A program made the translations under genes and the position numbers. Below, piece after piece: positions 12,958-64,000 of a stretch of 64,000 bases of DNA; within the stretch, counting starts at the first letter, position 1, and each line of letters begins with the position of its first letter. The stretch comes from Pseudanabaena sp. GTDB taxonomy: Bacteria; Cyanobacteriota; Cyanobacteriia; Pseudanabaenales; Pseudanabaenaceae. A model generated the notes under the pieces. The model was not told where the DNA came from. It worked only from the letters and a program-made list of their open reading frames with translations, and did no database searches. Location: contig QBMK01000031.1 in the NCBI GenBank assembly GCA_003249035.1, positions 1-64,000 of the forward strand, written 5' to 3'.

Positions 12958-15900
12958 CTACTGGTTAACGCAATGTAGTTGTCTCGCCCAAACGGGAGAA
13001 GGTAAAACTTTGGGAACTTCTGCTACAAGAGCGACTTCACCATAGGGGTTAATTGTCCAGCCTTGAGCTTCAACTATGCGATCGGGCAATTCATCAGTAT
13101 TTTGATTTGATTGTATTTGTTTAGCCCAAGATGGAGTTGGCAGAGCCTGTGAAGTATCCCTAACAACCGCAACTTCACCATAGGGCTGAACTGTTTGGCT
13201 CTGACTCTCAGCTACATTCACTGAGGTAGTCTTCACACCCAGATTTTCCTGCAAGCTATTACCACTAATCACATCAGCAGGACTGGAAGGAATACCGCCT
13301 CGCCCAGTGATTACAAATGTACTGCCTTGGCGATCGGCTAAGCATTTCTGTGTGACTAATTTACTCGCGTCACCAAAATCTACTGGTAAATTGTTTAATC
13401 CTTTACTAGGGTCAACTCCTGGAGTATTAATATTAACTGTTCCATTAATGCCTAAATCAGAACTAGCGGTAATATCGCTTAAAGCAGTCAACCGCGGACG
13501 AAACTGCAATCCAAAAATTGCTTGGGTAGTAAGGTTGATATTTCCACCATTCCCCGTAAAGGCATTGGCAAAGATATCGCTATTTTCATTGGGGAGAGCC
13601 ACAATAAAACCAGCAGTAATATTTATATTTCCACCGTTACCCCCAGCTAGGGCTGTACCTGCGGTGGTACTGATTTGACTACCATTGCGCAATAGTAAGA
13701 TAGAGGGAATGTTAAGGGTAATATTCCCACCATCAGCGCTAGCTGTTTCGGCAGTGATGGAAGAACCATTTAGCAACGTAAGGAAGTTAGATATAAGGGT
13801 GATATTGCCGCCAATACCAGCACCGAGACTACCAACAGCAATCTGCGCTCCATCCCGAAGAGTAACAGATATTGGGTCAATAAAGATATCTCCGCCTCTA
13901 CCTGTAGAGTTTGGTAAGGTATTAGCAAATAAGCCTGTTTTTGAGCCAGAAAGATTAAATTGATTGACCACTCTCACGTCGATTGTACCTGAGTCGCCAA
14001 TACTAGATGTTGCAGTTTGGATCTGTGCGCCATTAGAGATTGTAAAGTCATTCGCCCTCACAAAGATGTCACCTGCTTTTCCTCTTCCTGAAGTAGAAGC
14101 TGATACTAAAACTCCATCACTGAGCGTAAGCTGTTTGGTCGTAAATGTGATATTTCCTGCTTTGCCTGCATTTTCCATCTGTCCTGTTGTTTCGACAGCG
14201 AGTTTTCCTTGTCCTGCGATCGCAATTGATTGTGGAGCAGTGATAAACAAGTCACCGCCATTACCAATGCTAGAAGTGGAAGCTGAGATTTGGGAATTAG
14301 GTGCTAAGGCAATGTTGAGATAGCCAAGATTGTTGTAGGGATTGAGTCTTAAAGTTCCTGCGGGAGATATTCCTTGGGTTTCAGCAAATACACCGACTGT
14401 GCCGAAAAGATTCATCTGAGAAGCGTTGAGGGTAATGCTGCCACCACCGTCAGGATTAGTGGCGGTGGCGCTAGCAGTAGCGGTAATTCTTGCCTGATCT
14501 GTGAGGGTGAGGATCGGCGTGTTAATGACGATATTCCCTGCTTTGCCTGCGTTATTGGTTTGGACGGATAGAACTGGGAATGCATCGAGTACTCGCGTTA
14601 AGTCAACAGATGTTGGAGCATTGATTGTAATATTGCCGCCTGTTCCTGTGCCATTGGTCTCTGCTAATACTTTGGAATTGTCGTTAATTTTGACTATGGG
14701 TGCATTAATAGTTATGTCTCCTGCTTTGCCTTGATTATTGGTTGTTGCCGTGACCTTGCTATTGTTTTGGAAGGTAATCATGGTGGGGCTAGTGATCGAG
14801 ATATTGCCCGCAGGATCTTTACTTTGGGTGACAGTATTGATCGTGGTTTGATCAAAGGTGAGGCTGCCTAAAGTATTAGCGATCGCCACATCTCCCGATA
14901 TGCCACTTTTTCCAATTTCAAAGGTGATTGGGGTGCCAAAGGGGAGTTCAACAATTAAATCTTGACTAGTACTAATTTGCACATTTGTAATAACTAGATC
15001 TCCCAATCCATTAATTGTTACTGCCCCTGCTTTCCCTGTAGAAGATTGAGTAAAGATCTCAAAATTACTGATTTTGTCTTTAGCATCTATTTTAATGTCA
15101 CCACCAGCACCACTTTCTCCCAGTTTTGATATTGAGGTAGCAAGCAAGTAGCGCCTAGGATCGAACCCAGTTGTGATAATGCTGCCATTGGATGCAGATA
15201 AGGAAATGTTTCCCGCATTTCCTACATTGCCACTAGTCGAATTGGTATATGAAGATGATGCTGATCTATTGAAAGAGATATTGCCGTTAGAGGTTAAGAA
15301 AGCAATTTCTCCTCCATTTCCCGCATTGCCAGTATTTGAGAGCGAGTAAGCAAATGATGTCGATCTTCTGAGCGAGATATTACCGTTAGGGGTATAAAAA
15401 GAAATCTTACCCCCGTTTCCAGCATTGCCAGAGTCAGATAGTGAGTATGCGGTAGAGAACGAGTTAGCTAGTGATATATTGCCATTAGAGGTAATGAATG
15501 AGATTGCCCCAGCATTCCCCGCATTGCCAAATTTTGAGCTTGAGTATGATGATGGGCTTGAGCTTTCTAGTGAGATATCACCATTGGAGGTAGAGAAAGA
15601 TATTGCACCACCATTTCCTGCATTGCCAGAGTCAGCTTGCGAGTATGAGGATATTAATATTGAGCCATTGATCGAGATATTACCATTGGTATTAGAGAAT
15701 GATATCGCACCACCATTTCCTGCATTGCCAGAGTTAGAGCTTGAATTTGAGGACAATATAGAGTTGTCTAGCGAAATATTACCGTTGGTATTAGAGAAAA
15801 ATATCGCACCGCCATTTCCAGAACTAGAAGAAGATGAGTTAGTAATCGTCCCTGCAAGAGAAATATTGCCATTGTTGTTAGAGAGAGAAATTGCTCCCCC

Positions 15901-18288: not shown

Positions 18289-18614
18289 CAAAGCCTCTTC
18301 TAACACTAATTAAACAAACATTCTGAAGCTTTATAGTAATACTAAATAAACTTAATTTGCAACTAAATGTTGGTAAGAGTAGACAGACCTTATACATTCC
18401 TTACATTTTTATTGAAAGCCACCAAATCCATACCAAGTAATACTATTAAGTAAAAGAGAAGAGTCAATTCAATTCTTTATCATGAAAATGTCAAGAGATC
18501 TATTGTTGAAATTCAGAATCTCTAATTTATAGATTTAACTTAATAGAAATGTTGAAATCGACATGAAGAAAGTCGCATTTATTTTCTTTTTCTAATATTT
18601 TATTTTTAAGAAAT

Positions 18615-18703
18615 AAGTCTGATATATTTGAAAACATTTTTTGATCATAAATCTGACATATTTAAAGGTGTATTTTGAAATTAAGTTTGACATTCTTTAA
18701 AAC
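18615..18703 (+). promoter_or_regulatory. Three 34-bp-phased direct repeats in the tpsB promoter region
   Basis: Copies start at 18615, 18649 and 18683, exactly 34 bp apart, with consensus AARTYTGAYAT followed by a T-rich stretch and AAA. The third copy contains TTGACA (18687-18692), and a -10-like TACAAA follows 17 bp later (18710). That layout suggests an activator or repressor array over the tpsB promoter. The 18307-18614 part of the intergenic region is AT-rich and must hold the tpsA promoter, but I see no repeat there. Confidence 0.6.
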
Positions 18704-18819
18704 ATAAAATACAAATGATATGGCGTTCTTAATTCATTAATTTAAGATTAAGTGATTTGCTATATAGTCTGATTTTTTGCCATTACTATCGATTCTTATC
18801 AGTTTTAGGAATTAAGGCT

Positions 18820-20574
18820 TTGAGTAAGCATAGATTCAAAGGGGATTTCATTTCTAATTTTTACGTTTTGAACTTGTTAGGAATAGTATGGATAGGACTA
18901 ATTCCATCACAAGTTTTTGCTCAAACAACAAATTTACCAGCAACAGCTCCAGTTCTAACACCAAGAATTATAGCGCCAACCACGCCACCACCCTTACCCC
19001 AAGGCATTCCTGCGCCTTTACCATCCCCTGACGAATTACTAAAATCTCCTAGCCAAATTGCTCCACCAGTCGATACTAAACCACCTCAAACAGGTGCGAT
19101 CGCTGTTAAACAATTTCAAGTATTAGGAAGCACCGTATTTAGTACCGCAGAATTGAATGAAGTACTTGATAAATTTACCAAGCGATCGCTAACCTTTAAT
19201 GAGCTTCTACAAGCCCGTTCCGCAATTACAGATCTCTACATTAGCAAGGGCTATATCACTTCTGGCGCTTTTATCCCACCTCAAAATTTACAATCAGGCA
19301 TCGTCAAAATCCAAGTTATCGAAGGTGGACTAGAAGAAATTATAGTCACAGGAACCAATCGACTCAGCCCTGACTACATCCGATCGCGCATTAACATCGC
19401 CACAGGTGCGCCACTCAACCGCGATCGTCTGATCGAAGCATTACAAGTACTGCAAATCAATCCTCTGATCGCCAGTCTGTCAGCCGAACTCTCAGCAGGC
19501 GATCGTCCAGGCAAAAATATTCTCGAACTAAAAGTCTCAGAAACGCAAACCTTTAACTTGCAGCTATCTTTGGACAACAACACTGTCCCAAGCATTGGTT
19601 CCTTCAGTCGCGGTCTTCAGATTAGCGAAGCGAACCTTACTGGGCTTGGAGATTCTTTAACAGTTGCCTATAGCAATACGGACGGCAGCAACGTCTACAA
19701 TCTCAACTACAGTATTCCCATCAATCCATACAATGGCACACTTGCTTTCGCTTTTAGCAATACCAACAGCAACGTAATTGAAGCACCCTTCAATGTACTC
19801 GATATCTACGCAAACTCTACTACCTACTCCCTCACCTTCCGACAGCCAGTTTTGCAAACCCCCAACCAAGAATTGGCATTTGGAGCCATAGGCTCCTATA
19901 GTGACAGCCTTACCAGTCTGCTCGGAATTCCTTTCCCTCTTTCAGCAGGCGCAAATGACAATGGGGTAACTAAAGTTTCAGTTTTAAGCTTCTTTCAAGA
20001 CTACGTTCAACGCTCTAGTCAATCGGTTTTGGCGTTTCGCAATCAAATTAATATCGGTCTTGATGGCATTGGTTCTACCGTAAATGCTAGGTTCCCTGAT
20101 AGCCGATTTGTTTCTTTTCGAGGACAGGCACAATATGTTAATTTGCTTGCTCCTGAGACCCTTTTGCTATTTCGTAGCGATATTCAACTGAGCGATCGCC
20201 CTCTTGTCCCAATCCAGCAAATTTCTTTTGGTGGACAAGACACCCTGCGCGGTTATCGTCAAGATCTACTCTTGGGTGACAATGGAGCTTCATTATCAGC
20301 AGAATTGAGGGTTCCAGTTTTGCGCGTTCCCGAAATTGAAGGGATTCTGCAAATCGCGCCATTTATCGACTCAGGAATGGTGTGGACAAGTTCAGGTGAA
20401 GCTAACCCGCCTCAAAACCTTCTCGTTGGAACAGGGATGGGCTTACGCTGGCAAATGGGAACGCGTATGACTGCTGTATTAAATTATGGTATTCCTCTGA
20501 TGAATGTGCCAAATCGTCGCATAAATTGGCAAGAAAACGGTATTTATTTCTCTGTGATTTACAATCTGTTTTAG
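18820..20574 (+). CDS. TpsB outer-membrane pore (ShlB/FhaC/HecB family)
   Basis: 584 aa. I choose the TTG at 18820 because AGGA lies about 9 bases before it and it gives a good signal peptide (MSKHRFKGDF then a hydrophobic core ending QVFAQ); the open frame extends to a TTG at 18757. A proline-rich linker precedes POTRA domains (FQVLGSTVFSTAELNEVLDK; KGYITSGAFIPPQNLQSG). The C-terminal half is the beta-barrel, with SFGGQDTLRGYRQDLLLGD near the end and a terminal Phe (VIYNLF). It exports TpsA across the outer membrane. Confidence 0.93.
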   Translation: MSKHRFKGDFISNFYVLNLLGIVWIGLIPSQVFAQTTNLPATAPVLTPRIIAPTTPPPLPQGIPAPLPSPDELLKSPSQIAPPVDTKPPQTGAIAVKQFQVLGSTVFSTAELNEVLDKFTKRSLTFNELLQARSAITDLYISKGYITSGAFIPPQNLQSGIVKIQVIEGGLEEIIVTGTNRLSPDYIRSRINIATGAPLNRDRLIEALQVLQINPLIASLSAELSAGDRPGKNILELKVSETQTFNLQLSLDNNTVPSIGSFSRGLQISEANLTGLGDSLTVAYSNTDGSNVYNLNYSIPINPYNGTLAFAFSNTNSNVIEAPFNVLDIYANSTTYSLTFRQPVLQTPNQELAFGAIGSYSDSLTSLLGIPFPLSAGANDNGVTKVSVLSFFQDYVQRSSQSVLAFRNQINIGLDGIGSTVNARFPDSRFVSFRGQAQYVNLLAPETLLLFRSDIQLSDRPLVPIQQISFGGQDTLRGYRQDLLLGDNGASLSAELRVPVLRVPEIEGILQIAPFIDSGMVWTSSGEANPPQNLLVGTGMGLRWQMGTRMTAVLNYGIPLMNVPNRRINWQENGIYFSVIYNLF

Positions 20575-27688: not shown

Positions 27689-30600
27689 CTACTTTTTACT
27701 TTCCAAAAGTTGTCTGTCGCTTTCAGAAACATTGGGGTTATTGGTGAGGTAAGGACGTAGCCAATCGCAGGCTTGAGAAATTGCGCGATTGTAGTCTATA
27801 TCCCATAATTTAATCGTATTATATTTGTGCTTATTGCTGGCAGAAGCAATCATTTTGCCGCTGGGTGAAAAGACTACACTCCGAAATGATTTGTAATCAA
27901 TATCCTCAATCGTAAGTAGTTCCTTGCCATCCAAATACCATAATTTGATAGTGTTGTTAAAACTACCAGATATTATCGTTTTCCCATCTGGAGAGAAGGC
28001 TACACTCACAACTCCACTACTATGACCATCGATAGTAAGAACTTCTTTACCTTGTAAATCCCACAATTTAATGGTGTTATCGTTACTGCCAGAGGCAATC
28101 ATTTTGCCATTAGGTGAGAATGCTACACTCAAAACTCCACTACTGTGACCATAAATAGTAAGAACTTTTTTACTTTCTAAATTCCATAATTTAATAGTGT
28201 TATCGTTACTGCCAGAAGCAATCATTTTTCCATTAGGTGAAAAGATAACGCTCCGAATTTCTTTATTATGACCGTTTAGGGTAAGTAGTTCTTTACCATC
28301 TAAATTCCATAATTTGAGTGTTTGATCAAAGCTACTAGAGACAATTTTTTTGCTGTCTGGGGAAAATGCTAAACTTAAAACCCCTCCGCTATGTCCATTA
28401 ATCGTAAGTAGTTCTTTACCTTTTAAGTTCCACAACTTAATTGTTTTGTCACTACTTCCAGAAACTATTGTTTGACCATCGGGTGAGAATATTACACTTC
28501 TAACATCCTCTGTATGCCCTTTAAAGGTAATTAATTCTCTCCCTTCAAGATCCCACAATTTTACAGTTTTATCAAAGCTACATGAGGCAATAGTTTTACT
28601 GTCAGGAGAAAATACTACACTCCAAATCTTCTCGTTGTGACCCTTGAAAATAGTACATTGTTCTCTATCTTTCAAGTTCCATAACTTGACTGTTTTGTCA
28701 TTACTTCCAGAAGCTATTGTTTGACCATCGGGGGAAAAAGCTACACTCCAAATTTTATTGCTATGACCTTCCAGTGTAAGAATTTCTTCACCTTCTAAAT
28801 TCCACAATTTTATTGTTTTATCGTCACTACTAGATAAAACTATTTTGCCATCAGGACTAAAGGAAACACTCCTAACTCCAGCATAATGACCTTTGAATAT
28901 GCGTAATTCTTGTCCTTCTAGATCCAACAATCTGATTGTATGATCATCAGATGCAGAGATAATATATTTACCGTTTGGAGCAAATGCCACGCTCAAGACT
29001 GCACCCATATGGCTTTTAAAAGTTAATAATTCTTTCCCTTCGAGATCCCATAACTTGATAGTTCTATCTAAGCTTCCAGAAGCAATCATTTTACCATCTG
29101 GAGAAAATGATAGGCTTCTAACTCCAGCATGATGTCCTTCACAAATAGATAGTTCTTTCCCTTCTAGATTCCATAATTTTATAGTCTTGTCAGCACTGCC
29201 AGAAGCAATAAGCTTACCATCTGGAGAAAATGCAACACTTCTTACTTCTTTGCTATGTCCCTTAAGAGTATATAATTCTTTACCTTCTAAGTTCCATAAT
29301 TTTAGTGTATTGTCAAAGCTTCCAGAAACTATAACTTTGTCATTTGGAGAAAATGCCACGCTTAAAACATCACTGGTATGACCTTTTAAGGTTCGTAATT
29401 CTTTACCTTGTAAATTCCATAATTTGATTGTTTTATCACCACTGCTAGAAATAATTATTTTGCCATCGTGACTAAATGCTACACTTCTGACCCAGTTACT
29501 ATGACCTTCAAGACAATTATATTCATAAATGTTGTGCGTAAATTTCCATAGCTGTCCAAAACTTTTCTTAGCTAGATATTCAGGAATTATTTTACTAGTG
29601 CTTGGACTAAGAATCCGTTGTCCAGCCTTCACTCCTGCTATCATGGCTTCAAGTTGATGATGTGCCAACCAGTAAGACTCGCAAGAGATACTCAAAGCTT
29701 CGATTTCGGCAATTTCTGCTCGTTGGAGTTCTTGTTCTTTATCTGCTAAAGCCGATCGCAATTGTTCTTTGGTCATTCGCAACTCTTCCGCCATACCAAA
29801 GACATACTTCTTCCGAATAAAGCTAACCAAATAATCATGAATCAACTGAAAGCGATCATCAGGCGAACTACTCACCCGAAAAGCAAGCCCAGAGCCAACG
29901 AGAACTGCTAGTACCAGCGAGAGATTTTCTGCTTCGTTGAGAGGTTCGATCCCCCTGCCTTCGTCATCCCCATTAAAAAGGGGGACTTGGCTTAACTCTT
30001 CTCCCCCCTTTATAAGGGGGACTGGGGGGGATCGAAACCCCAATCCATCGCCAGAAACCTCACCCAACAACTCACCAGCAAGCTCTGCTTGCGTCTTTTG
30101 CGGACGCTTCTCCTCATTCCCCGTCAACGCATACAACACCCTCTCCGCCAACTCCTGATTCGCCACCCCACAATCCCGCACCACATTCTCCAACCACCGC
30201 TCCACCAACACCTCACTCGGCTTGCGATGCGGATCGCTCGTTAAGGCAAGATACTGCTGAAGATTCGCGATCGGCGGAACCTCAGACTCCAACTGCGCCC
30301 CCACCACCTGCAACTCAATCGGCAAAATCCGCAACTGCTCACCACTCAAATCCGTCACAAGTCGCTCAATCAACTCAGGCTCCAAACGTAACTGCGATCG
30401 CTTAGTCAAAGCATCGATCACCTTTCGCGCCTGATCCTGCGTAAAATCCCCCAAATAATAACGCACCTGCTTACCGAGAATGTCATTCTCTACTTTCTCC
30501 AAATCCACAGCGCGATCGCATTCCAACAAATAATGCAGATAGTCCTCCCGCAGCGACAACACCACCCGCACAAAATCCGTATGCAAACAAGCCTTGAGAA

Positions 30601-32518
30601 ACTTGTAAAACGGCAGGCGATCGCGAAAATCTTCCTTCTTAAAAAAGAAATCTTCAAACTGATCGAAAATCAATACCGTCAAATAATTCTCATCGATATT
30701 CCGTTTGAAATGCTGAATCGGATCGAGATCGGGACGGCGATCGCCAAAATATTTTTGGAGCTTGTGTTTGACCGATCCACTCCAATCTTTGTAATCTTTG
30801 ATCGCAAAAACTAAAACCTTCCGCCCGTCAATTGTTCCCTTTGTGCGTAACGCAGGAACCAACCCACCACTAAGGATTGAGCTTTTCCCCGCCCCCGAAT
30901 CGCCATGAATTACTGTCAAGGGAAATCGCGCCTGACCGATGCGATCGGCCAAATTCTCCACATCCAGCATCCGCCCCGAAGCCTCAATCTCTTGAGCAAT
31001 GCTATCCGACTGATTCGCAACTTCTGTATATATATTTGGATTGTTCGCTTCCCGCTTAGGGTTCAGCGTACCCGCCCCAATAAATGCGCGTAGCCCATAC
31101 TGCTGCTCCACCGATCGCTGATGTTGCTTCGTCTCAAATGCTTCCAAATATAAACCTGCAGCGGTATAAAGCGATCTCAATTCCTCCAAAACCAACACAT
31201 AGATCTGCGCCTCATACTGATGATTCCAGCTAGCTCTTAAGGCTTCTAGTCTAGCGATCGCACCTTGGCGATCGCCCAATCCATCCAAGGCTTTTGCTAA
31301 CCATAGCTCATACTTCCCATAGACATACCGTTGTGAAAATGGAAAATTCGGTAGTTTTAGCGCTTCTCCTTCTCGATAAAGCCGCAATGCAGTCTCTGCC
31401 AACTCCCGCGCCGATGCATAGTCATGCTGCCAGAGTCTCACCGAGGCAAAGATTGCGCGATCGTGAGCCTCCCGCAATTGATTGGGATAGATTTTATGTA
31501 GTGCAAGTGCTTCTTGGACGAGAGCTTTTAGGCTCTCAATGGTTTCCCGACTCAACAAATCTTCCATTGTCGCTGTCAAAAAATTAATGTATTCCGCCAC
31601 CAAATCCCCACGTTCCAATTGGCGGAAAATTGCGAGACATTCCGTGAAATATTGCTGTGACGAAAGATAAAATATCTCCTTGTCAAAACGATGACGCAGA
31701 GCTTGGCTGCGATCGCACATTCCTAATTGCAACAGACAAACCGCCTGCTTGAGTTGATTCTTACCCCGCCAAATCGCGAGACTTTTCTCAAATAGTTCCT
31801 TCGCCAAATCAAGTTGCGACTCAGCAAACGCAATACAACCAAAAGCAAAATCAAGATTTGCTCTCAGTTCTTCATCTATTTCTATTTCTTGAATCTCCAA
31901 CTCCGAGATCGCCGTCTTTAGCTCAAACTGTTGCAACCGATCGGCGATCGCTGTACGTATCGATTCACGTTTGCGAACATCCTGAAAGCGCTCGAACATC
32001 TCCTCTGTCGAGGCTTGCACTAGCAGCTTTAGCTCCACAGGCTCCAACCGAAACTCAATCGCCCCCGCCGTAGTCCAGTTCGCCAGATCGCTTGCCTCAC
32101 GGGTGAGGATGTCCTGAGTGCGATCGCTCAACCATAGGATCATCGGAAATTCTAAACAATTCGCAAATTCCTCGCGTACTCGATTTGCTGACTTTAAAAC
32201 CGCTTCAATTTCTTTGACCGCATCTAATCCTAAAACCATCAGAACTTTTGGCTTTTGCTCTGACGGCGAATGATACACCATTTTAATTAATTCTTGAATT
32301 GGAGTCAGCAAAGTCTTAGCATCTGTTTCCAATTCGAGAATAGCGATTGCTGTTTCGGGCAATCCCTGAGCCGAAAGTCGCGATCGCAAGTCCTGCAACA
32401 CCCGCTTTTGCAATACGCGATAATTACATAAAACGATCGACAATGAAAATCCCTGCGCTAGCTGGACAATGCGCGTTAACCGCTTCAAAGCTTTTTGATT
32501 AATATCGGCAACACTCAT
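27689..32518 (-). CDS. nSTAND-type NTPase with 14 WD40 repeats
   Basis: 1609 aa from MSVADINQ at 32518; the extra 25 residues up to 32593 translate a repeat element and are rejected. Residues 1-165 form an alpha/beta domain resembling a P-loop-less AAA module, and 210-470 are TPR-like helices. The nSTAND1 NTPase follows, with Walker A GDSGAGKSS at 539-547 and Walker B LIFDQFEDF at 616-624. A coiled region (905-945) leads to 14 WD40 units from about 1003 (LxGHxxxVxSVAFSPDGK), enough for two seven-bladed propellers. The family senses ligands and signals by oligomerising. It follows the 434-aa ATPase gene on the same strand. Confidence 0.88.
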   Translation of the reverse strand: MSVADINQKALKRLTRIVQLAQGFSLSIVLCNYRVLQKRVLQDLRSRLSAQGLPETAIAILELETDAKTLLTPIQELIKMVYHSPSEQKPKVLMVLGLDAVKEIEAVLKSANRVREEFANCLEFPMILWLSDRTQDILTREASDLANWTTAGAIEFRLEPVELKLLVQASTEEMFERFQDVRKRESIRTAIADRLQQFELKTAISELEIQEIEIDEELRANLDFAFGCIAFAESQLDLAKELFEKSLAIWRGKNQLKQAVCLLQLGMCDRSQALRHRFDKEIFYLSSQQYFTECLAIFRQLERGDLVAEYINFLTATMEDLLSRETIESLKALVQEALALHKIYPNQLREAHDRAIFASVRLWQHDYASARELAETALRLYREGEALKLPNFPFSQRYVYGKYELWLAKALDGLGDRQGAIARLEALRASWNHQYEAQIYVLVLEELRSLYTAAGLYLEAFETKQHQRSVEQQYGLRAFIGAGTLNPKREANNPNIYTEVANQSDSIAQEIEASGRMLDVENLADRIGQARFPLTVIHGDSGAGKSSILSGGLVPALRTKGTIDGRKVLVFAIKDYKDWSGSVKHKLQKYFGDRRPDLDPIQHFKRNIDENYLTVLIFDQFEDFFFKKEDFRDRLPFYKFLKACLHTDFVRVVLSLREDYLHYLLECDRAVDLEKVENDILGKQVRYYLGDFTQDQARKVIDALTKRSQLRLEPELIERLVTDLSGEQLRILPIELQVVGAQLESEVPPIANLQQYLALTSDPHRKPSEVLVERWLENVVRDCGVANQELAERVLYALTGNEEKRPQKTQAELAGELLGEVSGDGLGFRSPPVPLIKGGEELSQVPLFNGDDEGRGIEPLNEAENLSLVLAVLVGSGLAFRVSSSPDDRFQLIHDYLVSFIRKKYVFGMAEELRMTKEQLRSALADKEQELQRAEIAEIEALSISCESYWLAHHQLEAMIAGVKAGQRILSPSTSKIIPEYLAKKSFGQLWKFTHNIYEYNCLEGHSNWVRSVAFSHDGKIIISSSGDKTIKLWNLQGKELRTLKGHTSDVLSVAFSPNDKVIVSGSFDNTLKLWNLEGKELYTLKGHSKEVRSVAFSPDGKLIASGSADKTIKLWNLEGKELSICEGHHAGVRSLSFSPDGKMIASGSLDRTIKLWDLEGKELLTFKSHMGAVLSVAFAPNGKYIISASDDHTIRLLDLEGQELRIFKGHYAGVRSVSFSPDGKIVLSSSDDKTIKLWNLEGEEILTLEGHSNKIWSVAFSPDGQTIASGSNDKTVKLWNLKDREQCTIFKGHNEKIWSVVFSPDSKTIASCSFDKTVKLWDLEGRELITFKGHTEDVRSVIFSPDGQTIVSGSSDKTIKLWNLKGKELLTINGHSGGVLSLAFSPDSKKIVSSSFDQTLKLWNLDGKELLTLNGHNKEIRSVIFSPNGKMIASGSNDNTIKLWNLESKKVLTIYGHSSGVLSVAFSPNGKMIASGSNDNTIKLWDLQGKEVLTIDGHSSGVVSVAFSPDGKTIISGSFNNTIKLWYLDGKELLTIEDIDYKSFRSVVFSPSGKMIASASNKHKYNTIKLWDIDYNRAISQACDWLRPYLTNNPNVSESDRQLLESKK
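29946..30035. repeat. 90-bp repeat inserted in frame in the nSTAND gene
   Basis: TCGATCCCCC (29946-29955) and GGGGGATCGA (30026-30035) are perfect 10-bp inverted ends. The interior carries the CCCCCTTTATAAGGGGG-type palindrome common in cyanobacterial genomes. It encodes about 30 residues (SPPVPLIKGGEELSQVP and beyond) at protein positions about 828-858, between the ATPase and the coiled region. 90 bp is 30 codons exactly, so the frame is kept. Confidence 0.8.
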
Positions 32519-32564
32519 AATTTTTGTCTGTTTATAGGTCAGCAAAAGAAAACTGTGAATGACC

Positions 32565-32630
32565 AGATCCCCGACTTTTTTAGTGACTAGCAAAACTGAT
32601 CTCTGATTGCAAAGAAAAAGTCGGGGATCT
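32565..32630. repeat. 66-bp inverted-repeat element in the nSTAND leader
   Basis: AGATCCCCGACTTTTT (32565-32580) is perfectly complementary to 32615-32630, with a 34-base interior. It lies between the ATPase gene stop (32660) and the nSTAND start (32518). As RNA it would be a stable hairpin that may act as terminator or attenuator between the two genes. Confidence 0.8.
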
Positions 32631-47307: not shown

Positions 47308-49443
47308 CTACACCGCCTTATTCTTTTTGTCAAATAGAACTAGAAAAGTTTGAACAATCAATTTGAGATCGTACCAAATACTCCAATTTTTACGATATTC
47401 AATATCATAGTTAACTACTTCACCAAAAGATCTAACACTCGATCGCCCATTCACCTGCCATACGCCAGTAATTCCTGGTCTTACATCTAGACGATTCCAT
47501 TCTGTATAGCGCTCATTATGATATTCCACTTCTAATTCATAGGAGTTAATCTCATCAAATGTAGGAGGACGAGTTCCGACTAAACTCATATCACCGATTA
47601 AGACATTCCAAAATTGCGGAAATTCATCAAGGCTAGTCTTTCTTAGGAACTTACCGATTCTAGTTACACGAGGATCATTGGCATTCTTAAAAAATTTACC
47701 ACTTGCGGTCGTATCATCTCCTTCCGCAATAGGGATATTTGAACTTGCTTCAACCTGATTCTCAACCTTTATTTTAAGTTGCTCAGCATTCTGCACCATC
47801 GATCGAAATTTCCAGATTTTGAATGGCTTACTCAATAGACCACAACGAACTTGTCCAAACAAAACACCACCTTTACTTTCTAATGCGATCGCGATCGCAA
47901 GTGGAATAAATATAACAGCAGTAAAACTTAAGCCAATTAATGAGCCTACGATATCAATTATTCTTTTAAGAGGGTTGCGGACAGAAGGATGTACAGGCAC
48001 ACTGGGGTCGATATCAATGAAAGGGAAAAGAAATTTTAGGATTGGGTAGAAAATCCTGAGAACAGGGATTCTTTTGAGTAATTGCTGTGTCCGAAACAGA
48101 AATAACCCAAACATTGTAATATTTCTAACTTTAGTCATTTGGATTGAATTAGAATATCGGAAGGTATTGCTGGTTGGCTCAGTTATAAATAAATTGCTAA
48201 GAGAAGATAATCTAATCAAAGCGCCAACAGCTTCACCTACACTCCACAGAGCTAATTTGGTCTTGTTTGCAGTAGCTATTCTGAGGCAATTGGTTAAAGC
48301 TCCTAAGCCCGCACTGTCCATAACCGTAGTGTGACTCATATCTATCACAATCTTCTTATAGTGTTCATCGCTATTGCAAATAGTTTGAAAATCGATCAAA
48401 AACTCTCTGGCAGAAGAAAACACCAATCTTTCGGGACTAAATATAAATGCAACTTCATCAAAAGTCACTATTGACGCTTGTTTGTAATCTCTATTTTGAT
48501 TGATTTCGTTATTGCTTCCATCACTAACAGGAATATAAACAGCTTTGGGATAAAGATTTGCGATCGCCTTACTTCTGACAATAATTAGATCGAGTACCCG
48601 CAATTTTATTAATACCCATGCAGGTAACCCAATATCTTGAAAGCGAGTTTTTGATTCTATAAAAACAACTTTACTACCACAAAACCACTTGGCAATAAGT
48701 AGATAAGGAAGGGCAAATCCTGAGCCTGTAGAAACAACTAGATCTGGTTTCTGTCGAGGAACAACTCTGAAGGCTAGGGCTACATTACGGATAAAATTTA
48801 CGAAGTTATCTTTTACAGGAGCATATCCCCAATACCGATGAACATTTTCAATCTCGCGCTCAGTGGTATTCGTGCGTATAGATATCCATAGGCGATCGCT
48901 ATAATTTTCCCAAAAACTTTTTAGGCTTTTCATATAGCGGAAATAACCACCAGCACCACAAACAAGCATTAATTTTTGTGATGGATATCGATCTTTTAAA
49001 TATTCACATAATTGAGTCTCATCAAATTTAGGAATTACTGTAGATTGTTGTAACTTAATAAATTTGACTAAATCTCCCGGAGATCTAGCGATCGCAACTC
49101 CTCTGTGTTCAAATTCATCGGCAACTTCCATTTGACGATTATCAATATATTCTCTAAATCTTTGTAAACGAGGTACGAGAACAAATGGGGTATCTTTGTC
49201 TTCTAACAGCAGAGCCGTATTCTCATCGCAATGACTAATAATTAAACTAGCTCGATCAACAAAGTTTAAAAATTCATGCTCAGATAAATTCCGATAAGCC
49301 TTAGATCCATCAGGGAAATGAGTTGAAAAGCCGTATTGTACTAATACATCTTCATTGATTAGTTGGTACTTAATCAACAATTCTATCCAATGCATTAGAG
49401 CGTTAAATTGATATTGTTCTGTCCCAACTGTGATTAGAAGCAT
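47308..49443 (-). CDS. Four-domain exopolysaccharide enzyme: PssE-PssD-STAS-sugar transferase fusion
   Basis: 711 aa. Residues 1-130 resemble PssE/Alg13 ([25 protein letters not shown]). Residues 155-305 resemble PssD/Alg14 ([47 protein letters not shown]). Residues 325-425 are a STAS domain with [16 protein letters not shown]. Residues 490-711 are an undecaprenyl-phosphate sugar-phosphotransferase: a membrane helix (498-522), [24 protein letters not shown] and [13 protein letters not shown]. This puts the first two sugar additions of a repeat unit on one chain, with a regulatory STAS between. Genes with each part separately are known; I have not seen this full order described. Likely inner-membrane bound. 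Confidence 0.85.
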
Positions 49444-50151: not shown

Positions 50152-51843
50152 TTATGAGTTAACAGCCTTGATATGTGCTTGGCGAGAAATAGGAGAATTG
50201 ACTCGGTATATAGCACTACGGGGTAAGACGCGCAAAATTTCTTCGGTCGTGGTTATACCAGAGTTAAGCTTGTCGATCGCTGCAAGTCGAAATGAATTAA
50301 AGTCAATTTCATTAAGATAACGATTCATTTGGGTAATCGTCCCTTCATAAATCATTTGGCGAAAAGCATCGTCAATATCGATCAATTCGACCACTGCTTC
50401 TCGCCCAATATAACCAGTGAAAAAGCATTTTTCGCAACCCTTCCCTTTACGCCAAAGACTGGGATCAATATCTTTGCGATCGAGTCTGAGAGATTGTAGC
50501 TCTGACAAAGTTGGATGATTGGGCGCTGAGCAATGAGGACAGTTTTTACGAATTAGCCGCTGAGCGACGACACCCAATAGAGCATCACTAATTAATCCTG
50601 GGTCTGGGCCAAGATCTCTGAGGCGAGGAATGGCACTAGCTGCATCATTTGTATGCATTGTCGATAATACCAAATGTCCTGTTAGAGCAGCTCTAACAAC
50701 GGTTTCAGCGGTTTCAGGATCTCTAACTTCGCCCACCATCACAATATCGGGATCTTGTCGCAAAATTGCGCGTAGCCCTGCGGCAAAGGTCATGCCTGCG
50801 GGTTCACAGACTTGAGTTTGAGTAATATTTGGCAGGATATATTCGACAGGGTCTTCAACGGTAATCACATTGACATGTTCTTGAGCGATCGCTTGCAAGC
50901 TCGTATAAAGAGTGCTGGTTTTACCTGAACCAGTTGGGCCAGTCATGATGATCAGTCCTTGAGGCTGTCGTAACCAACTGTCGTAAATTTTCAGAGTGCG
51001 ATCGCTGAATCCTAGATTTTCTAAATGGTTCGAGAAAGGATTGTCACGGGGCAAAAGCCTAATTACTGCTTTTTCACCACAGACACAGGGCAATGTACTC
51101 ACCCGCATATCGAGATTACGGTGCAGGCTTTCGTCGCTGGTATATTCTTTGCCAATGCGTCCGTCTTGAGGACGTCGGCTATCGGCTATGTCCATGTCGG
51201 ACATCACTTTCAGGGCGACAATAATTTTGCGGCTAATTTCGAGTGGTAAGGTTTTGATATCGCGCAAAATGCCATCAATGCGAAAGCGTACCCGAAGCCC
51301 TTTGGGAGTCGGCTCTAGATGAATGTCACTTGCCCGATGTTGTAATGCGATCGACATTAAGGCATTAATCCGACGGGTTTGATCGACAGCTTGAGATAGA
51401 TAAAGATCTGTAGCCTCGACAATATCAACTTGCTCTGTTTCCCCTGTGAGCGGATTGATCGCCTGTGCTGAATGGATCTCGTTTGGATTCGGAATATTTT
51501 GGCGACGAAACCATGTGCGATAACTAGTCGTTGCAATCTTGATCGTTTTGATATCGGTCAAGGTACGATCGCTAATCAGCTTGATATGGTCATCTGTTAG
51601 AGGCTTGGGACTTCCAATATAAAAACAGTTGCGCCAAAGTAATAGAGGAATTACTGGTGGCAATATGCTGCGGTCTTCAAATTCTCGAAAAAAACGGTGC
51701 GTAAGCTCTTGGTCAAGACAAGATAAATGCACATTGCCTTCAATATCTACTAAAAGCTGCAATGCTTCTTCGCAGGTTGCAATGTTGCCATGTCGCAGCC
51801 TTTTCCAGACTGATTCCCCTACATGTCCCGATGTTTCATTCAT
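50152..51843 (-). CDS. PilB/GspE-type secretion ATPase
   Basis: 563 aa. The N-terminal about 150 residues resemble a degenerate GspE N-domain. Walker A GPTGSGKT at 302-309 is followed by an Asp box (VITVEDPVEYILP), Walker B-like (DPDIVMVGEVRDPETAETVV) and the His box (GHLVLSTMHTND). Two CxxC pairs (NCPHCSAP and GCEKCFFTGY) bind zinc. It powers pilus extension or type II secretion. It is shorter than the usual PilB (about 670 aa), so it may be the second paralogue. No other pilus genes lie near. Confidence 0.9.
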   Translation of the reverse strand: MNETSGHVGESVWKRLRHGNIATCEEALQLLVDIEGNVHLSCLDQELTHRFFREFEDRSILPPVIPLLLWRNCFYIGSPKPLTDDHIKLISDRTLTDIKTIKIATTSYRTWFRRQNIPNPNEIHSAQAINPLTGETEQVDIVEATDLYLSQAVDQTRRINALMSIALQHRASDIHLEPTPKGLRVRFRIDGILRDIKTLPLEISRKIIVALKVMSDMDIADSRRPQDGRIGKEYTSDESLHRNLDMRVSTLPCVCGEKAVIRLLPRDNPFSNHLENLGFSDRTLKIYDSWLRQPQGLIIMTGPTGSGKTSTLYTSLQAIAQEHVNVITVEDPVEYILPNITQTQVCEPAGMTFAAGLRAILRQDPDIVMVGEVRDPETAETVVRAALTGHLVLSTMHTNDAASAIPRLRDLGPDPGLISDALLGVVAQRLIRKNCPHCSAPNHPTLSELQSLRLDRKDIDPSLWRKGKGCEKCFFTGYIGREAVVELIDIDDAFRQMIYEGTITQMNRYLNEIDFNSFRLAAIDKLNSGITTTEEILRVLPRSAIYRVNSPISRQAHIKAVNS

Positions 51844-56698: not shown

Positions 56699-59641
56699 TT
56701 ATTTCGCAACAAGTTGAGATAAAGTTTGCAAGAGTTCATTATCTTTAAAAGGCTTAGAGAAATAGGCTGAAGCTCCCAGACGCATCGCTAAATCTCGGTG
56801 CTTTGACCCACTCCGAGAAGTGAGCATCACCACAGGGATATTTTTGCAACTCTCGTCACCACGAGATTGAACTAAGAAGCCAAACCCATCTAGTCGAGGC
56901 ATCTCAATGTCACAGATCACTACGCTGACTCTATCATTTTGGGTTAGCGTTTGTAGTTTTCGCAATTTTTCCATTGCTTCCAGTCCATCTTTAGCCTGTT
57001 CGACCCGATAGCCAGATTTTTCTAAGGTCATCGCTAAGAACCTGCGGACATTAATTGAGTCATCAACGACTAGAACAGTAACTCGACGATCGCTTCTTTC
57101 AGATGGCAATGTAAGTGTTTTGCTGGGAGGTGCATCAAGATCATCGATCGCCCAAGTGAGCATGTTATCAATATCCACAAGTGGCACGAGCTTGCCGCCG
57201 CCAAGAATCGCACAACCCATAAAACCAGTTGGCATCGGGATCATACTCTGGACACCGCGAATGGTTACTTCCTGTTCTCCCCAATAGCGATCGACTTGCA
57301 ACCCAAAGGGAACGTTATTTCGCGCCACAATTAACATTAATGACTCATCAACAATTGGTCTATTTTCGTTCTCCACTTGTAGTCGATTACGAGAGAAATG
57401 TAAGCGATCGCCTAGTTTTAATAAAGGTACAGAATAGCCTTCCCAGTCTACTACTTCTTGATTAGCGACCGTATAGATTGCCGTGTCCTTAATTAAGAGA
57501 ATTTCTTCGACGGCACTGGTGAGAATTGCCATCTGCAAACCATTACTTTCAAACAGTAGAACGCGAGCAATGGAGAGCGAGACTGGGACAGTTAATATAA
57601 ATGATGTCCCTTTGCCAGCTTCCGTTTCGATGCGAATGCTGCCGCCAATGATATTCAGATTTGAGCGCACCACATCCATGCCCACGCCGCGCCCTGAAAG
57701 TTCAGTAACACGGTCAGCGGTACTGAAACCTGCTTCAAAAATCAGATCTAACATCTCGGTTTCACTAGAACCATCGAGATCGCTCTCGCTAAGTCCCATT
57801 TGCAAGGCGCGATCGCGTAGTTTCGCGAAATTGATCCCATTGCCATCATCACTGACGGTGATTACGGTTTGGTTGCCGCGATAACCTGCGGCAATTTCGA
57901 TCTTCCCTTTCGGTGGCTTACCAACAGCAATTCGAGCTTCAGGTGTTTCAATGCCATGATCGAAGGCATTGCGAATTAGATGTAAGAGCGGATCTTCTAA
58001 TATTTCTAAAACCGATCGCTCAACGAGGGTGGAACTACCGCGCACCACTAACTCAACTTGTTTCCCATGGGTAACTGACAAATCTCTCAATAAGCGAGGA
58101 AATCTGCCTAAGATTTCGCTGAGCATTCGCATTCTCGCTTGCTCGATCGCAGTCTGCATCTGTCGTGAGGCTCGTCCTAGTTCGCGTTCAGTACCTTCAG
58201 TATCTGTTAAGGCGGTTTCTAGATCGCTTGAGACTTCTTGCAACTGCACAACACTATCCATGATTTCCCGTGATAGCACATGCAACTCGCTATAGCGATC
58301 CATTTCTAGCAAGTCAAAACGACTGGTATAGGGCAAAAAGTCTTCGTTGCTTACGGTTTCATTGGCGTAGCGATCGCTTCTCATGATTTCAGATGGGATT
58401 TCTGAAGCAATTATTGTATTTAAGGGAATAAATGGCTCAGATGAGGTAACTACTCGATCGTAGGCTTCTCTAAGTTGAGAATTGGACTGTTCTAATCCAT
58501 GCATTCTTGCATTGAGAAGTTGCACCAAATCGCGCATTCGTCGTAGTTGTAGGCGCAATCCACTCCGTTCTGCATTTAACTCACCGAAGCGATCGCTAAG
58601 TGCTTCTAACTGGCGGAGAGGAATACGGATCGTAGCATCAAGATTTATGGCAGTGGCGGGTGCTGGCTCTACTGTGGTTGGCGCGATCTGGATATCTTGA
58701 TAGTTAGATTGCAATTCAACCAAGTCTAACGAAAACTCATTAAGTTCCGTAATGTCTTCATTATTATCTGCATTGAGATCGTTAACTAGAAATTCTTGCG
58801 GGTACTCCTCTAACTCATGGGATGGGGCGTTGGTGGTAACAACAGTTGGCGCAGTTTTTGGTGGCGATATCTGAAAATGGTCTGGTAAAGCTTGAAACTG
58901 TCCGACTAAAACAAGAGCTTGCGATCGCCGCCAGGCCTCTAAGGCGGCAGTTGTCACTTCGTGAATATTATTGTCCTGCTCGGCTAAGGCGCTGCTAATC
59001 TCTTGGCAAAGGCGACTAAATGCTGGCAGCTCTAACATTTCCCCTAAGCAGCCAAATTCTTGACTTGTGAGTTCAAATTCTTCGCGGAGCACTTGTGAAT
59101 CTCGATCGCCAATTACTTGGGTTAGCCGCTCCAAACAAGCATCTACTTCAGTCGCAAACATGAGGACACGCATATCCTGACCTGCTTCTTCAGATAGCAG
59201 ACTTGCTTCATCCTTTGTTGATAGTTCGCCGAGGATTTCCCGCAGATGTTTAAATGGAAGATTAACATTTTCTTCTAGCCAAACCTCATCGGGATTTTGT
59301 CGCTGCTTATGAATATTTGCGGTTTTCCCCATGTTATCGACAGCTGCTAGAAACAGGCTTTCCATTGCAGGGGCGATCGCAGTTTGATTGTTTACTTGGA
59401 GGATTTTAACAAAGTCTTCTAGATGGTGTGCGAGTTCGCTGAGTGCAAGAAAACCCATCATTGCCGCACCACCTTTCATGGAGTGAGCAGCACGTAAAAT
59501 CTTATCAGTTGCCGATCTCTGCAAACCGCGATCGCTCAGCCCGATAATTTCTGATTCAATATCTGCTAAGAAGTCTTTGACTTCATCAAGAAATAGTAAA
59601 CGAACTTCCCATTCGCGATCGCTTAATGTATCAATTGCCAT
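56699..59641 (-). CDS. cheA: Hybrid CheA histidine kinase (Hpt-CheA-CheW-REC)
   Basis: 980 aa. The N-terminal Hpt has His53 in RAAHSMKGGAAMMG. The middle (about 160-340) is poorly conserved. The dimer helix and HATPase (LLHLIRNAFDHGIETPEARI; VSDDGNGINFAKLRD; GFSTADRVTELSGRGVGMDV) follow, then a CheW-like domain (about 690-830). A C-terminal REC (about 855-980) has VVDDS, Asp in VVICDIEMPRLDG and SKPFKDN. This is the PixL/PilL-type hybrid kinase for cyanobacterial taxis. It follows the second MCP by 59 bp. Confidence 0.95.
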   Translation of the reverse strand: MAIDTLSDREWEVRLLFLDEVKDFLADIESEIIGLSDRGLQRSATDKILRAAHSMKGGAAMMGFLALSELAHHLEDFVKILQVNNQTAIAPAMESLFLAAVDNMGKTANIHKQRQNPDEVWLEENVNLPFKHLREILGELSTKDEASLLSEEAGQDMRVLMFATEVDACLERLTQVIGDRDSQVLREEFELTSQEFGCLGEMLELPAFSRLCQEISSALAEQDNNIHEVTTAALEAWRRSQALVLVGQFQALPDHFQISPPKTAPTVVTTNAPSHELEEYPQEFLVNDLNADNNEDITELNEFSLDLVELQSNYQDIQIAPTTVEPAPATAINLDATIRIPLRQLEALSDRFGELNAERSGLRLQLRRMRDLVQLLNARMHGLEQSNSQLREAYDRVVTSSEPFIPLNTIIASEIPSEIMRSDRYANETVSNEDFLPYTSRFDLLEMDRYSELHVLSREIMDSVVQLQEVSSDLETALTDTEGTERELGRASRQMQTAIEQARMRMLSEILGRFPRLLRDLSVTHGKQVELVVRGSSTLVERSVLEILEDPLLHLIRNAFDHGIETPEARIAVGKPPKGKIEIAAGYRGNQTVITVSDDGNGINFAKLRDRALQMGLSESDLDGSSETEMLDLIFEAGFSTADRVTELSGRGVGMDVVRSNLNIIGGSIRIETEAGKGTSFILTVPVSLSIARVLLFESNGLQMAILTSAVEEILLIKDTAIYTVANQEVVDWEGYSVPLLKLGDRLHFSRNRLQVENENRPIVDESLMLIVARNNVPFGLQVDRYWGEQEVTIRGVQSMIPMPTGFMGCAILGGGKLVPLVDIDNMLTWAIDDLDAPPSKTLTLPSERSDRRVTVLVVDDSINVRRFLAMTLEKSGYRVEQAKDGLEAMEKLRKLQTLTQNDRVSVVICDIEMPRLDGFGFLVQSRGDESCKNIPVVMLTSRSGSKHRDLAMRLGASAYFSKPFKDNELLQTLSQLVAK

Positions 59642-59700
59642 ATCGACCTCTTTTTTGTTTTGTCTTTTTGCTAAAGCGATTAGCTTTTAGTTAACTTAAG

Positions 59701-61557
59701 TTAAGCTGCGTCTACTTTAAAGGTTTCTACCGAAGCCTGTAGCTTGTTGGCAACATCTGCGGTCTCTTGGAGCGCGATCGCCACATCCCGCGAAGTCTCT
59801 GAAGAATGCTGTGACTGAGCAGAGAGATTTGCCATTAAAGATCGCACTGATTGCGAAGTTTGTACCTGCGAAGTTGTGGCGATCGAAATATCTTGGAAAA
59901 GTTGGTTGACCTGACGCGACACTTGGACAATTTGGTTCAAACTCTTACGAGCATCTTCGACTCGGTTTGTACCTTCAACCACCTGTACCGTACTAGCTTC
60001 CATCGCTTGTACCACTTCGCTAGTTTCTTTTTGAATAGTTTCCACCAGAATTTCGATTTCTTTTGTTGCTGTTGCTGACTGTGCAGCCAACGCTCCAACT
60101 TCTTCCGCAACTACAGCAAAGCCTCGACCTTGCTCACCTGCTAGCGATGCTTCGATACTGGCGTTAACTGCCAACATGTTTGTTTTTAGCGCAATTTGAT
60201 CGATCAGTACGACAATCTTAGAAATTTGTTGAGTAGCTTCCCCAAGCCGTTTTACCTTCTTGGCAGTCTCAGCAACAGTTTGGCGCAATTGCATAATACT
60301 TTGAACTGACTGCTCGATCGCTACGCTACCAGTTTCCGCCGAATCTGCCGCTGAGTTCGAAACATTGGCAGCTTGTTGGGCGTTACTAGCAACTTGCTGA
60401 ATTGAATTGGTCATTTGTTCGACCGATTGCAGTGCTTCCTCAAGTTGTTGAGTTTGGGAGATGGCATCTTCGGCAAGATTGCGAATTGACTGGTTATTAG
60501 TATCCACTGATGTATTTACCAACCCTGCCGACAGTTTTACTTGTCGCACAACGTCGCGCAGACTTTCAATAATTGAGTTAAAGAAGTCGGCAACAATGCC
60601 AATTTCTCCAGCCGAGAGCTTTGCTCGCACTGTTAAGTCACCGCTAGCCGCACCTTCAACATCAGCCAGCAATGTAATTAAGTCTCTTTGTAAAACAGCG
60701 CTCCGTTCGCTATCTTGAGCCGCAATGGATTGCTCTAATTGCATTCTTGCCCGTTCTTGCTCAGCTGTAGCCTGTTGTAGTTCGAGTCTTGCGCGTTCCT
60801 TATCGGTCTCAGCCTGTTGGATTAGCAATGAGGCAATATTTTTTTGTGCACGATCGCGATCGCTTAGATATGCGCGAATTAGCCTCAGCGCAATTAGATA
60901 AGCCCCAATCAATGCGGGTAAACTGAGGAGCGTAAATATTAGCGAAACAATCAAGCGTTGGCTAAAAGCATCTAGCTCTCCTCTCGTTTCAGTTTCAATT
61001 GCTGCCAGTGTCTTTGACGAGCCGTCAGCATAGATCTTCTTCAGTGCTTCGTATTCAGTACCAAATAAAATTTGTGAAGCTTCATTTTTTTTGCCTTGAC
61101 GGACTAATTCAAAGGATTTTTTTTCTAAGTCAACTAGCTTTGTATTTGCATCATTAACTTCTGCGGGCAAATTTTTATAAGTATTAGGCGCGATCTTTGC
61201 TGATTCCTCAAGCGCAGCTACGAGTTGAGGGTCGAACTCTAGATAGCGCTTTTCCCACCGAGGATCGCCAGTGGAGGCTGACATCCTTGCCGACATAGTC
61301 AGAACTTCGTCAAAATATACGATTTTGCCGCTTAGTTCTTGGAGGCGAAAATTTCTCTCGGAAATCGAGCGGAAACCTCGATAGATGTCAAAGAGGTTCA
61401 ATGCCGAAATCCCAAATACAACTAACCCGACTCCCACAAAAGCAGTCAAGCCGCGAATGATTTTACGATCTTCTCCAGTTCGCTCCATTACAGGCTCTAG
61501 AACAACTGGTATAGAAGGCTTGGGATCGGTCAAAACTGATTCTTTGTTTGCTAGCAT
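59701..61557 (-). CDS. Methyl-accepting chemotaxis protein with 4-helix sensor
   Basis: 618 aa from the ATG at 61557; an upstream ATG at 61620 is possible but less likely. A membrane helix (about 36-60) and a second (about 205-228) bracket a periplasmic four-helix sensor. The long helical HAMP/linker has repeated [16 protein letters not shown]-like text, and the C-terminal MA domain has [20 protein letters not shown] and [20 protein letters not shown]. It signals to CheA through CheW. Its C-terminal half is nearly identical to that of the MCP upstream, so the two genes are paralogues. Confidence 0.93.
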
Positions 61558-61652
61558 ATGTTTCTTTAAAAAGCCCCTGCTCTTAATTCGGTTATGGATA
61601 AAGCGATCGCCGCAACGCATTGATTGACGATCGATCGCTCAAACTTTAGAAC

Positions 61653-64000
61653 TTATTCGACCTTAAAGGTTTCGACGGATGCTTGTAGCTGACTGGTGAC
61701 ATCTGCGGTTTCCTGTAAGGCGATCGCAACATCTCGCGAGGTTTCCGAAGAACGCTGGGACTGGGTTGAGAGATTTTGCATTAGCGATCGCACTGATTGT
61801 GAGGTTTGCACCTGTGAGGTCGTAGCAAGCGAAATCCCTTGGAAGAGTTCATTTACCTGCTGTGAAACTGCCACAATTTGATTCAAACTCTTACGTGCTT
61901 CTTCGACTTGGCTTGTACCTTCAACCACCTGTATCGTACTGGATTCCATCGCTTGTACCACTTCTCGCGTTTCTGCTTGAATACTTTCAACCAAGCGAGC
62001 AATTTCTTTGGTCGCAGTTGCTGACTGCGCAGCCAAGGCTCCCACCTCAGCCGCAACTACCGCAAAGCTTCGACCTTCCTCACCCGCCCGCGCTGCCTCA
62101 ACACTGGCGTTTAGTGCAAGCATGTTGGTTTTTAGTGCGATCTGATCGATCAGTACGACTACCTTCGAGATTTGTTGTGAGGCATCTCCCAGTCGTTTTA
62201 CCTTTTTCCCAGTATCATCAACGGTCTGGCGTAGTTGCAAAATACTTTGCACCGATTTTTCGATTTCCACGCTACCTGTTTTCGCTGAGTTTGCAGCCGT
62301 ATTAGATGCTGATGCTGCCTGTTGAGCGCTACTTGCCACCTGTTGAATCGAGTCGGTCATTTTTTCAACGGAGATCAATGCTTCATCAAGTTGTTCTGCT
62401 TGTAAGGTTGACTCTTGGGCGAGATTACGAATTGCCTCGTTATTGGTATTTACGGAGGTGCTTACCAGCCCTGTCGTGTCTTTTACCTTACGCACAACGT
62501 CCCGCAAACTTTCCACGATCGCATTAAAAAAGTCGGCAACGATGCCAATTTCACCAGCCGAGATTTGAGCGCGAACGGTCAAATCTCCACTTGCAGCACC
62601 TTCTACATCTGTTAGCAAATTAATTAACTCGCGCTGAATTGATTCACTACGTTGGCGTTCTTGATCGGCAAATAGGCGCTGTTTCTCGAGGGCGGCTAGT
62701 CCCGAAATGGCACGTCCGATTTCATTGGCTCGTTTCTGTAGGGTGGCAATTTCTGATTCTTGCCAGTTGCGTTGGCGATCGCAAGAATGGGCGATCAGCA
62801 AGCTGTCAAGCTCATCGCCACGGATTACAGGCACGATTAAATTCGACTTGATTTGCAATTGGTGCATCATATTCACATGAGCAGGACTAATACAGCCTTC
62901 TTTAAAAACGTCATTGATTGCCATAATCCGCCCATTTCTGTAAGCTTCGAGGGTTTCTTGAGGAATACAAGGATCGCTCAAGCCTGCGGCTTTAGCATTA
63001 GTCAAATGAGCCAGCCCATCTTCAGCGACAATGATTCCTTTGGTTCCGCCCATACCATTATCCATAAAGCGATAAACCACCACCCGATCGCAATTAAACT
63101 CTTGGCGAATTTCTGCCATAAATTTATTCAATGGCGTTTCTAGCTCATCAAGGTCGCTCGATCGCGCCACTTCAGTAAGAAGCTCTGAGCGCCTTGCTTG
63201 CGCTTCTTGTAAAGCCAAGAAAGTCTGCAACTGCCCTGCCATCAAGTTGATGTTGTCACCCAACTGCGCCATTTCATCTTGACCTTTGACTTCAAGGCGA
63301 GTATCGAGATCACCTTTACCAAGTTTGACCACCGCTTGCGTTGCGTCAAGGATTGGTTTTGAAGCGCGTTGGGCGATCACGATCGCTAATACTGCCGCCA
63401 ATATACCCACACCACCAGTCGCAGCGAGCAAGATCAACAGCAATTGTTGCAATGGCTGGAGAGCTGTAATTTTGTCCGTTGCAATTACAGCTTCCCATTT
63501 TTGATCGGGTAATCCCTCGACTTTTGCCAAAGGAGAGTAACCAGCGAATAATTCTTTATTAGAGGCTGGATCAATTACTGTTGCCGAATGCTTTTCTCGT
63601 GTTTCTAGGTATGGAGCAAATGGAGGGAATACAGATTTTAGATCGCGCCCAATTAACTCTTGATTTAAAGATATAAATAATTTGCCATCAGACTCCGCCA
63701 AGTAATACTGTTCCCCAACAGGAATATAGTCTTTGTAGATATTTTCTAAAGCGGATGCGGGCATTCTAGTACGAACGATAGCAATAGTTTTACCAGTAGT
63801 AATATCTTTTACTGGGGCTGCCAAAAAAATACTAACTTTTTTGGTCACAACAGATGGCTCTGGCTGACTAATCGTTGGCTGATCAGTTGTCAGTACAGTT
63901 TGAAAATAGTCGCGTTTGAAAGCACTAGCTGGGGCTGGGTCTGATCCTGCATCAACAATTAATTTACCATCTAGCCCATACACAGCAATACTGTCATAAA
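61653..64000 (-). CDS. MCP with periplasmic Cache, HAMP and GAF domains (partial at window edge)
   Basis: At least 776 aa; the N-terminus lies beyond the right edge. A periplasmic Cache-like sensor comes first, then a membrane helix (about 181-205), HAMP, and a GAF (about 275-430). The GAF resembles phytochrome/cyanobacteriochrome GAFs ([23 protein letters not shown]), but the canonical bilin Cys position reads SPAH, while a DPC is present at about residue 337-339. An MA domain with [20 protein letters not shown] closes. It signals to the CheA/CheW below. Taxis role likely, light sensing uncertain. Confidence 0.92.

Follow-up and report, generated by a model that had tools for sequence, protein, structure and literature searches.

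PssD/PssE pairs (EpsE/EpsF, Cps14F/Cps14G and Alg14/Alg13) are second-sugar transferases, and in Wzx/Wzy pathways the usual argument for a coupling of priming to second-sugar addition is drawn from operons. The Asp-Glu dyad of phosphoglycosyl transferase (PGT) domains serves to transfer a sugar-1-phosphate onto undecaprenyl phosphate (Und-P) (PMC10942596). Bifunctional monotopic PGTs form the Bi-PGT class of O'Toole et al. (2021), as described in PMC10942596. Fusions of Alg13 and Alg14 in reverse order exist in Entamoeba and Dictyostelium, and the GGH histidine is essential in Agl24 and MurG (PMC8993221). In cyanobacteria, the STAS-glycosyltransferase all4160 of Anabaena is required for the heterocyst envelope polysaccharide (PMC4390870, PMC8256260), and XssP is needed for synechan production, which is abolished on its loss (PMC8205485). 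A search of openly readable papers found nothing relevant on a cyanobacterial PssD/PssE/STAS fusion.

The window analysed here, a stretch of 64,000 nucleotides from Pseudanabaena sp. (contig QBMK01000031.1), carries a gene in which these parts are joined (Table 1). The initial annotation had placed four domains in one frame of 711 amino acids, and the profiles of Pfam and NCBIfam together with the predicted folds confirm all four of them, in the order PssE-PssD-STAS-PGT. The frame is single and uninterrupted on the minus strand, while the plus-strand reading of 47308-49443 is riddled with stops; chance or a frame artefact is ruled out, because the full-length protein is kept in 22 of 26 genomes of the genus. 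Pfam places Bac_transf (PF02397, monotopic phosphoglycosyl transferase) at residues 493-704 (E=1.3e-63), STAS at 337-425, Alg14 at 214-304, where it passes the cut-off, and Glyco_tran_28_C at 1-129 with 21.9 bits, slightly below the cut-off of 22. The NCBIfam models match at 3-141 for PssE (E=1e-13; 51 bits, short of the equivalog cut-off of 120) and at 159-303 for PssD (E=9e-22; 78 bits, short of the equivalog cut-off of 110).

Table 1. Features of the fusion gene, in window coordinates.
Feature	Position	Strand	Basis
PssE-PssD-STAS-PGT fusion gene (Pseudanabaena paralog 1), 711 aa	47308..49443	-	ATG start, profile searches, orthologs
PssE/Alg13-like donor-binding half, residues 1-132	49048..49443	-	Pfam, NCBIfam, fold of part alone
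Degenerate PssE loop HCDEN, residues 71-75 (HCGEG in intact homologs)	49219..49233	-	
PssD/Alg14-like acceptor half, residues 156-305	48529..48978	-	Pfam, NCBIfam, fold comparison
Degenerate PssD catalytic loop GAGGY, residues 163-167 (SSGGH in intact homologs)	48943..48957	-	
STAS domain, residues 324-428	48160..48474	-	Pfam, fold comparison
STAS loop DSAGLG with Ser377	48301..48318	-	alignment
Linker of hydrophobic helix, residues 429-481, in the long form found in Pseudanabaena	48001..48159	-	
Monotopic phosphoglycosyl transferase (PGT) domain, residues 482-711	47311..48000	-	Pfam, PglC fold, WbaP alignment
PGT catalytic motif SLDEFPQ (D606-E607), intact	47614..47634	-	

An AlphaFold2 model was built with 42 fused homologs (mean pLDDT 71), the STAS and PssD parts being well modelled. 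The PGT part matches PglC; confidence is low in parts of this domain, so that its assignment rests mainly on sequence. Residues 155-306 match the N-domain of MurG (7d1i) with Z 14.8 over 145 residues, a GT-B N-terminal-type fold. Folded alone, residues 1-132 (pLDDT 89) match GT-B donor domains and thus have a donor-binding fold, with Z 11.5 to residues 194-333 of the same MurG chain (its C-domain) and further matches to UDP-bound YojK/YjiC. Since PssE corresponds to the C-terminal half of MurG and PssD to the N-terminal half, their order is swapped with respect to MurG. Residues 319-425 match STAS domains of the RsbV/TM1442 type (Z 16.6 to TM1442, 16.1 to RsbV). A sequence-only search of the PDB gave weak Alg13 matches for PssE (E about 0.08) and no match for PssD; the fold comparison settled the identity of both.

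Twenty-six Pseudanabaena genomes were compared. The window type (paralog 1) occurs in 22, and another full-length fusion, about 50% identical to it (paralog 2), in 21: 18 genomes have both, four the window type only, three the second only, and one neither. The window genome belongs to the group of four, the fusion being the sole one there and in G007, G013 and G024. An assembly gap is an unlikely reason for the missing second paralog, as this genome (a draft, 95.5% complete) also lacks the cluster-type Wza. In paralog 2, HCGEG, GGH and the PGT dyad are all present, and the gene adjoins Wza, Wzc, Wzx and glycosyltransferase genes (loci L041, L042, L063, L065-L067, L069, L071-L075 and L093-L095); the Wzc-like label is taken from position and from similarity between loci, Pfam giving no match for the Pseudanabaena member. 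The window type occupies a different, conserved site, where its neighbours are DUF427 and a gene for a T2SS/T4P ATPase. As the initial annotation had remarked, no flippase or polymerase lies nearby: none was seen among the scanned window proteins, nor any exopolysaccharide gene in the flanks of the orthologs. In one strain (M085S1, locus L115, 8001-8280) a frameshifted, mostly deleted remnant of the window-type gene lies at the conserved site, paralog 2 being kept, and the gene is therefore dispensable in some strains.

Upstream of the fusion in the window is the T2SS/T4P ATPase (T2SSE) gene (50152-51843), with DUF427 between them on the opposite strand, an arrangement found genus-wide. About 7 kb from the fusion are genes for a CheA hybrid kinase and two MCPs (56699-63983), possibly a motility chemotaxis locus. 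Elsewhere the window encodes a 1634-residue protein with many WD40 repeats (27689-32593) and a two-partner secretion pair (12958-20574), consisting of a 1782-residue TPS-domain protein on the minus strand and a ShlB/FhaC-type transporter on the plus strand, which adjoins a CHAT-TPR protein.

Beyond Pseudanabaena, fusions were detected in Oscillatoria PCC 10802, O. princeps, Leptolyngbya FACHB-36, Stenomitos and UBA11370, among others. The fusion is rare: of 386 cyanobacterial genomes in an evenly drawn sample, only four, all of them Pseudanabaena, had a fused PssE-PssD at E<=1e-40. A plasmid search gave no full-length match to it. In an unrooted tree all fusions fall on one side of a branch with 100/100 support, so that one fusion event suffices and several independent ones need not be assumed, long rows such as L039 (a fusion from another genus) being placed with little certainty.

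The PGT half of paralog 1 appears intact. KFRSM, SLDEFPQ (or SIDEFPQ), VGTRPP and PGITG are retained in all 22 orthologs, the alignment with WbaP runs through the Asp-Glu motif with SLDEFPQ aligned, and a hydrophobic stretch near residues 495-523 accompanies the dyad in the manner of the re-entrant N-terminal helix of monotopic PGTs. The PssDE half has been altered in every ortholog. GGH of PssD has become GGY, GNY or GGA (22/22), with the His lost in all and replaced by Tyr in the window protein; HCGEG of PssE has become HCDEx (22/22), with Asp for G73 in all; and the conserved SPTNRN stretch is likewise rewritten. The IES glutamate of PssD is kept. Among the columns at least 95% conserved in the other homologs, paralog 1 has replacements in 5/39 for PssE, 13/45 for PssD and 2/76 for the PGT. 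The dN/dS ratios, which are only approximate because dS is near 1, are 0.151 for PssD of paralog 1 against 0.058 for paralog 2, 0.083 against 0.062 for PssE, and 0.059 against 0.045 for the PGT. Judged by these ratios, the dead-looking PssDE half of paralog 1 is under relaxed, yet not neutral, selection. In the tree, a long stem (0.74 changes per site) leads to the paralog 1 clade, within which the sequence is conserved. L039 has also lost the PssDE motifs, like the window type, on a long branch of unsure position.

The fusions of Oscillatoria and of Leptolyngbyaceae (Leptolyngbya FACHB-36, UBA11370 and CRU_2_3 among those examined with Oscillatoria) show the reverse of paralog 1, with PssDE intact and the PGT decayed. 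Their Asp-Glu dyad is lost (GLEQ, QLDK, HLDK and NLDK) and the domain truncated, while the same column test leaves PssDE unchanged (0/42 and 2/52 columns replaced). Three of the genomes, when checked, have intact-looking PGTs elsewhere, some of them in frames of STAS-PGT size.

The unfused relatives are conserved within Wzx/Wza exopolysaccharide clusters. Their gene order in Nostocales, Synechococcus, Cyanobium and Acaryochloris is pssD, pssE, STAS-PGT, with Wzx and Wza- and Wzc-like genes upstream, together with GT2 genes and one that is pyruvyl transferase-like. A simple in-order fusion of such an operon is ruled out, the fusions having PssE before PssD. Free STAS-PGT proteins occur at 74 places in 66 of 292 cyanobacterial genomes. 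One of these, the 317-residue SGL_RS00260 on Synechocystis pSYSM, adjoins the regulators xssQ/R/S (named by position) and by its own position is most likely XssP, the priming enzyme of synechan. The STAS-PGT portion of the architecture is therefore known already, such proteins being common and reported before (all4160, and here also XssP).

The STAS domain of the window protein has been proposed as a switch operated by phosphorylation of Ser377, for which the case is weak here. The site is Gly in 7 and Thr in 1 of the 22 paralog-1 orthologs, and Gly again in L039; and no gene for an anti-sigma-type (RsbW-like) kinase was found near any of the fusion loci. Because the serine is Gly in about a third of the orthologs and no kinase gene lies nearby, phosphorylation is unlikely to be the conserved role of STAS in the fusions, and a protein-contact or nucleotide-sensing module is more likely. 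The split loci have a different neighbourhood: in 16 of 20 an RsbW-like HATPase_c_2 gene lies directly 3′ of STAS-PGT (for example L107:9961-10434, L054:9085-9549 and L048:8852-9463), and a solo STAS gene often comes next. There the serine and the RsbW-like gene are kept together, which makes a phosphorylation switch on STAS-PGT plausible from gene order and motif. The wider reading is that STAS is a partner-switch input in the split relatives and, by extension, in the window protein, an RsbW-like kinase phosphorylating the serine and so toggling the initiating transferase. It concerns the STAS domain alone and is compatible with any reading of the rest of the protein; paralog 2 also retains the serine, and genes for RsbW-like proteins exist at other places in the window genome. 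Against it stand the fusion loci, with their glycines and their kinase-free surroundings, and the degenerate STAS loop of XssP, and we consider it unlikely.

What, then, does the fusion do? The initial annotation had suggested that initiation and second-sugar addition are coupled on one chain. This fits the fusion family, in which paralog 2 retains every motif and belongs to a Wza/Wzc/Wzx cluster; it is unsupported for the window protein, because the catalytic His of PssD and the HCGEG of PssE are lost in all 22 orthologs, and the motifs argue against PssDE activity in this copy. From the computed domains, motif losses, phylogeny and selection we surmise that paralog 1 is probably a working PGT whose PssDE half, no longer catalytic but still folded, has become a scaffold. 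It would have arisen by duplication of a bifunctional enzyme whose PssE and PssD also added the second sugar. The PssDE half would then have lost its catalytic residues while staying folded under purifying selection, and may now anchor the PGT or recruit another second-step enzyme, to which the second sugar would be left. The membrane-bound PGT domain would still put hexose-1-phosphate on Und-P and so start the exopolysaccharide repeat unit. A fully bifunctional protein, in which the PGT primes the lipid, PssDE adds the second sugar and the altered motifs suit a new donor or acceptor, seems to us rather unlikely. In its favour, each GT-B half has its full length and is predicted to fold, both being under purifying selection, the IES glutamate is kept, and a fused paralog does lie in an exopolysaccharide cluster; the replacement of His by Tyr and of Gly by Asp could shift the substrate rather than abolish activity, and the low PssE ratio could reflect a retained reaction. 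However, the missing His is essential in the relatives that have been tested, and both its loss and the Asp at G73 are universal among the orthologs; the SPTNRN stretch is rewritten as well.

It is very unlikely that the entire gene, rather than PssDE alone, is a redundant duplicate heading for loss. Such a fate would agree with its being absent or broken in 4 of the 26 genomes, the frameshifted remnant included, and with the want of exopolysaccharide genes nearby, but the gene is full length at a conserved site in the other 22, the dN/dS of its PGT is 0.059, and it is the sole fusion in four genomes, that of the window among them. A broader scenario, which we put forward tentatively, takes in the mirror-image fusions as well: a bifunctional fusion of single origin would have lost either catalytic half, depending on the lineage, the dead half serving as a scaffold or regulatory pseudoenzyme, and in the split relatives the RsbW-like kinase of the cluster would target STAS and gate initiation directly, without a sigma factor.

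Four matched forms exist in nature: genes that are split, a fusion that is intact, and fusions in which either the second-sugar half or the priming half looks dead. With these the purpose of the fusion can be tested. The conserved pairing of STAS-PGT with an RsbW-like kinase gene suggests post-translational control of exopolysaccharide start-up, which would bear on biofilms, motility and blooms.

Compared with the described systems, the window protein resembles XssP and all4160 in having STAS immediately N-terminal to the Bac_transf/monotopic PGT domain, and differs in the PssE-PssD part, which is absent from their chain. With PssD/PssE and their counterparts it shares the fold of the two GT-B halves, and the split-gene relatives of these adjoin the initiating transferase; in the window protein they are fused in the order PssE-PssD, with GGH and HCGEG lost. 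The Alg13 half precedes the Alg14 half in Entamoeba and Dictyostelium also, but those are eukaryotic N-glycan enzymes, whose described fusions are without STAS and PGT. As in the Bi-PGT class described in PMC10942596, additional functional domains are fused to a PGT core; what sets the window protein apart is that these are a permuted PssE-PssD and a STAS domain.
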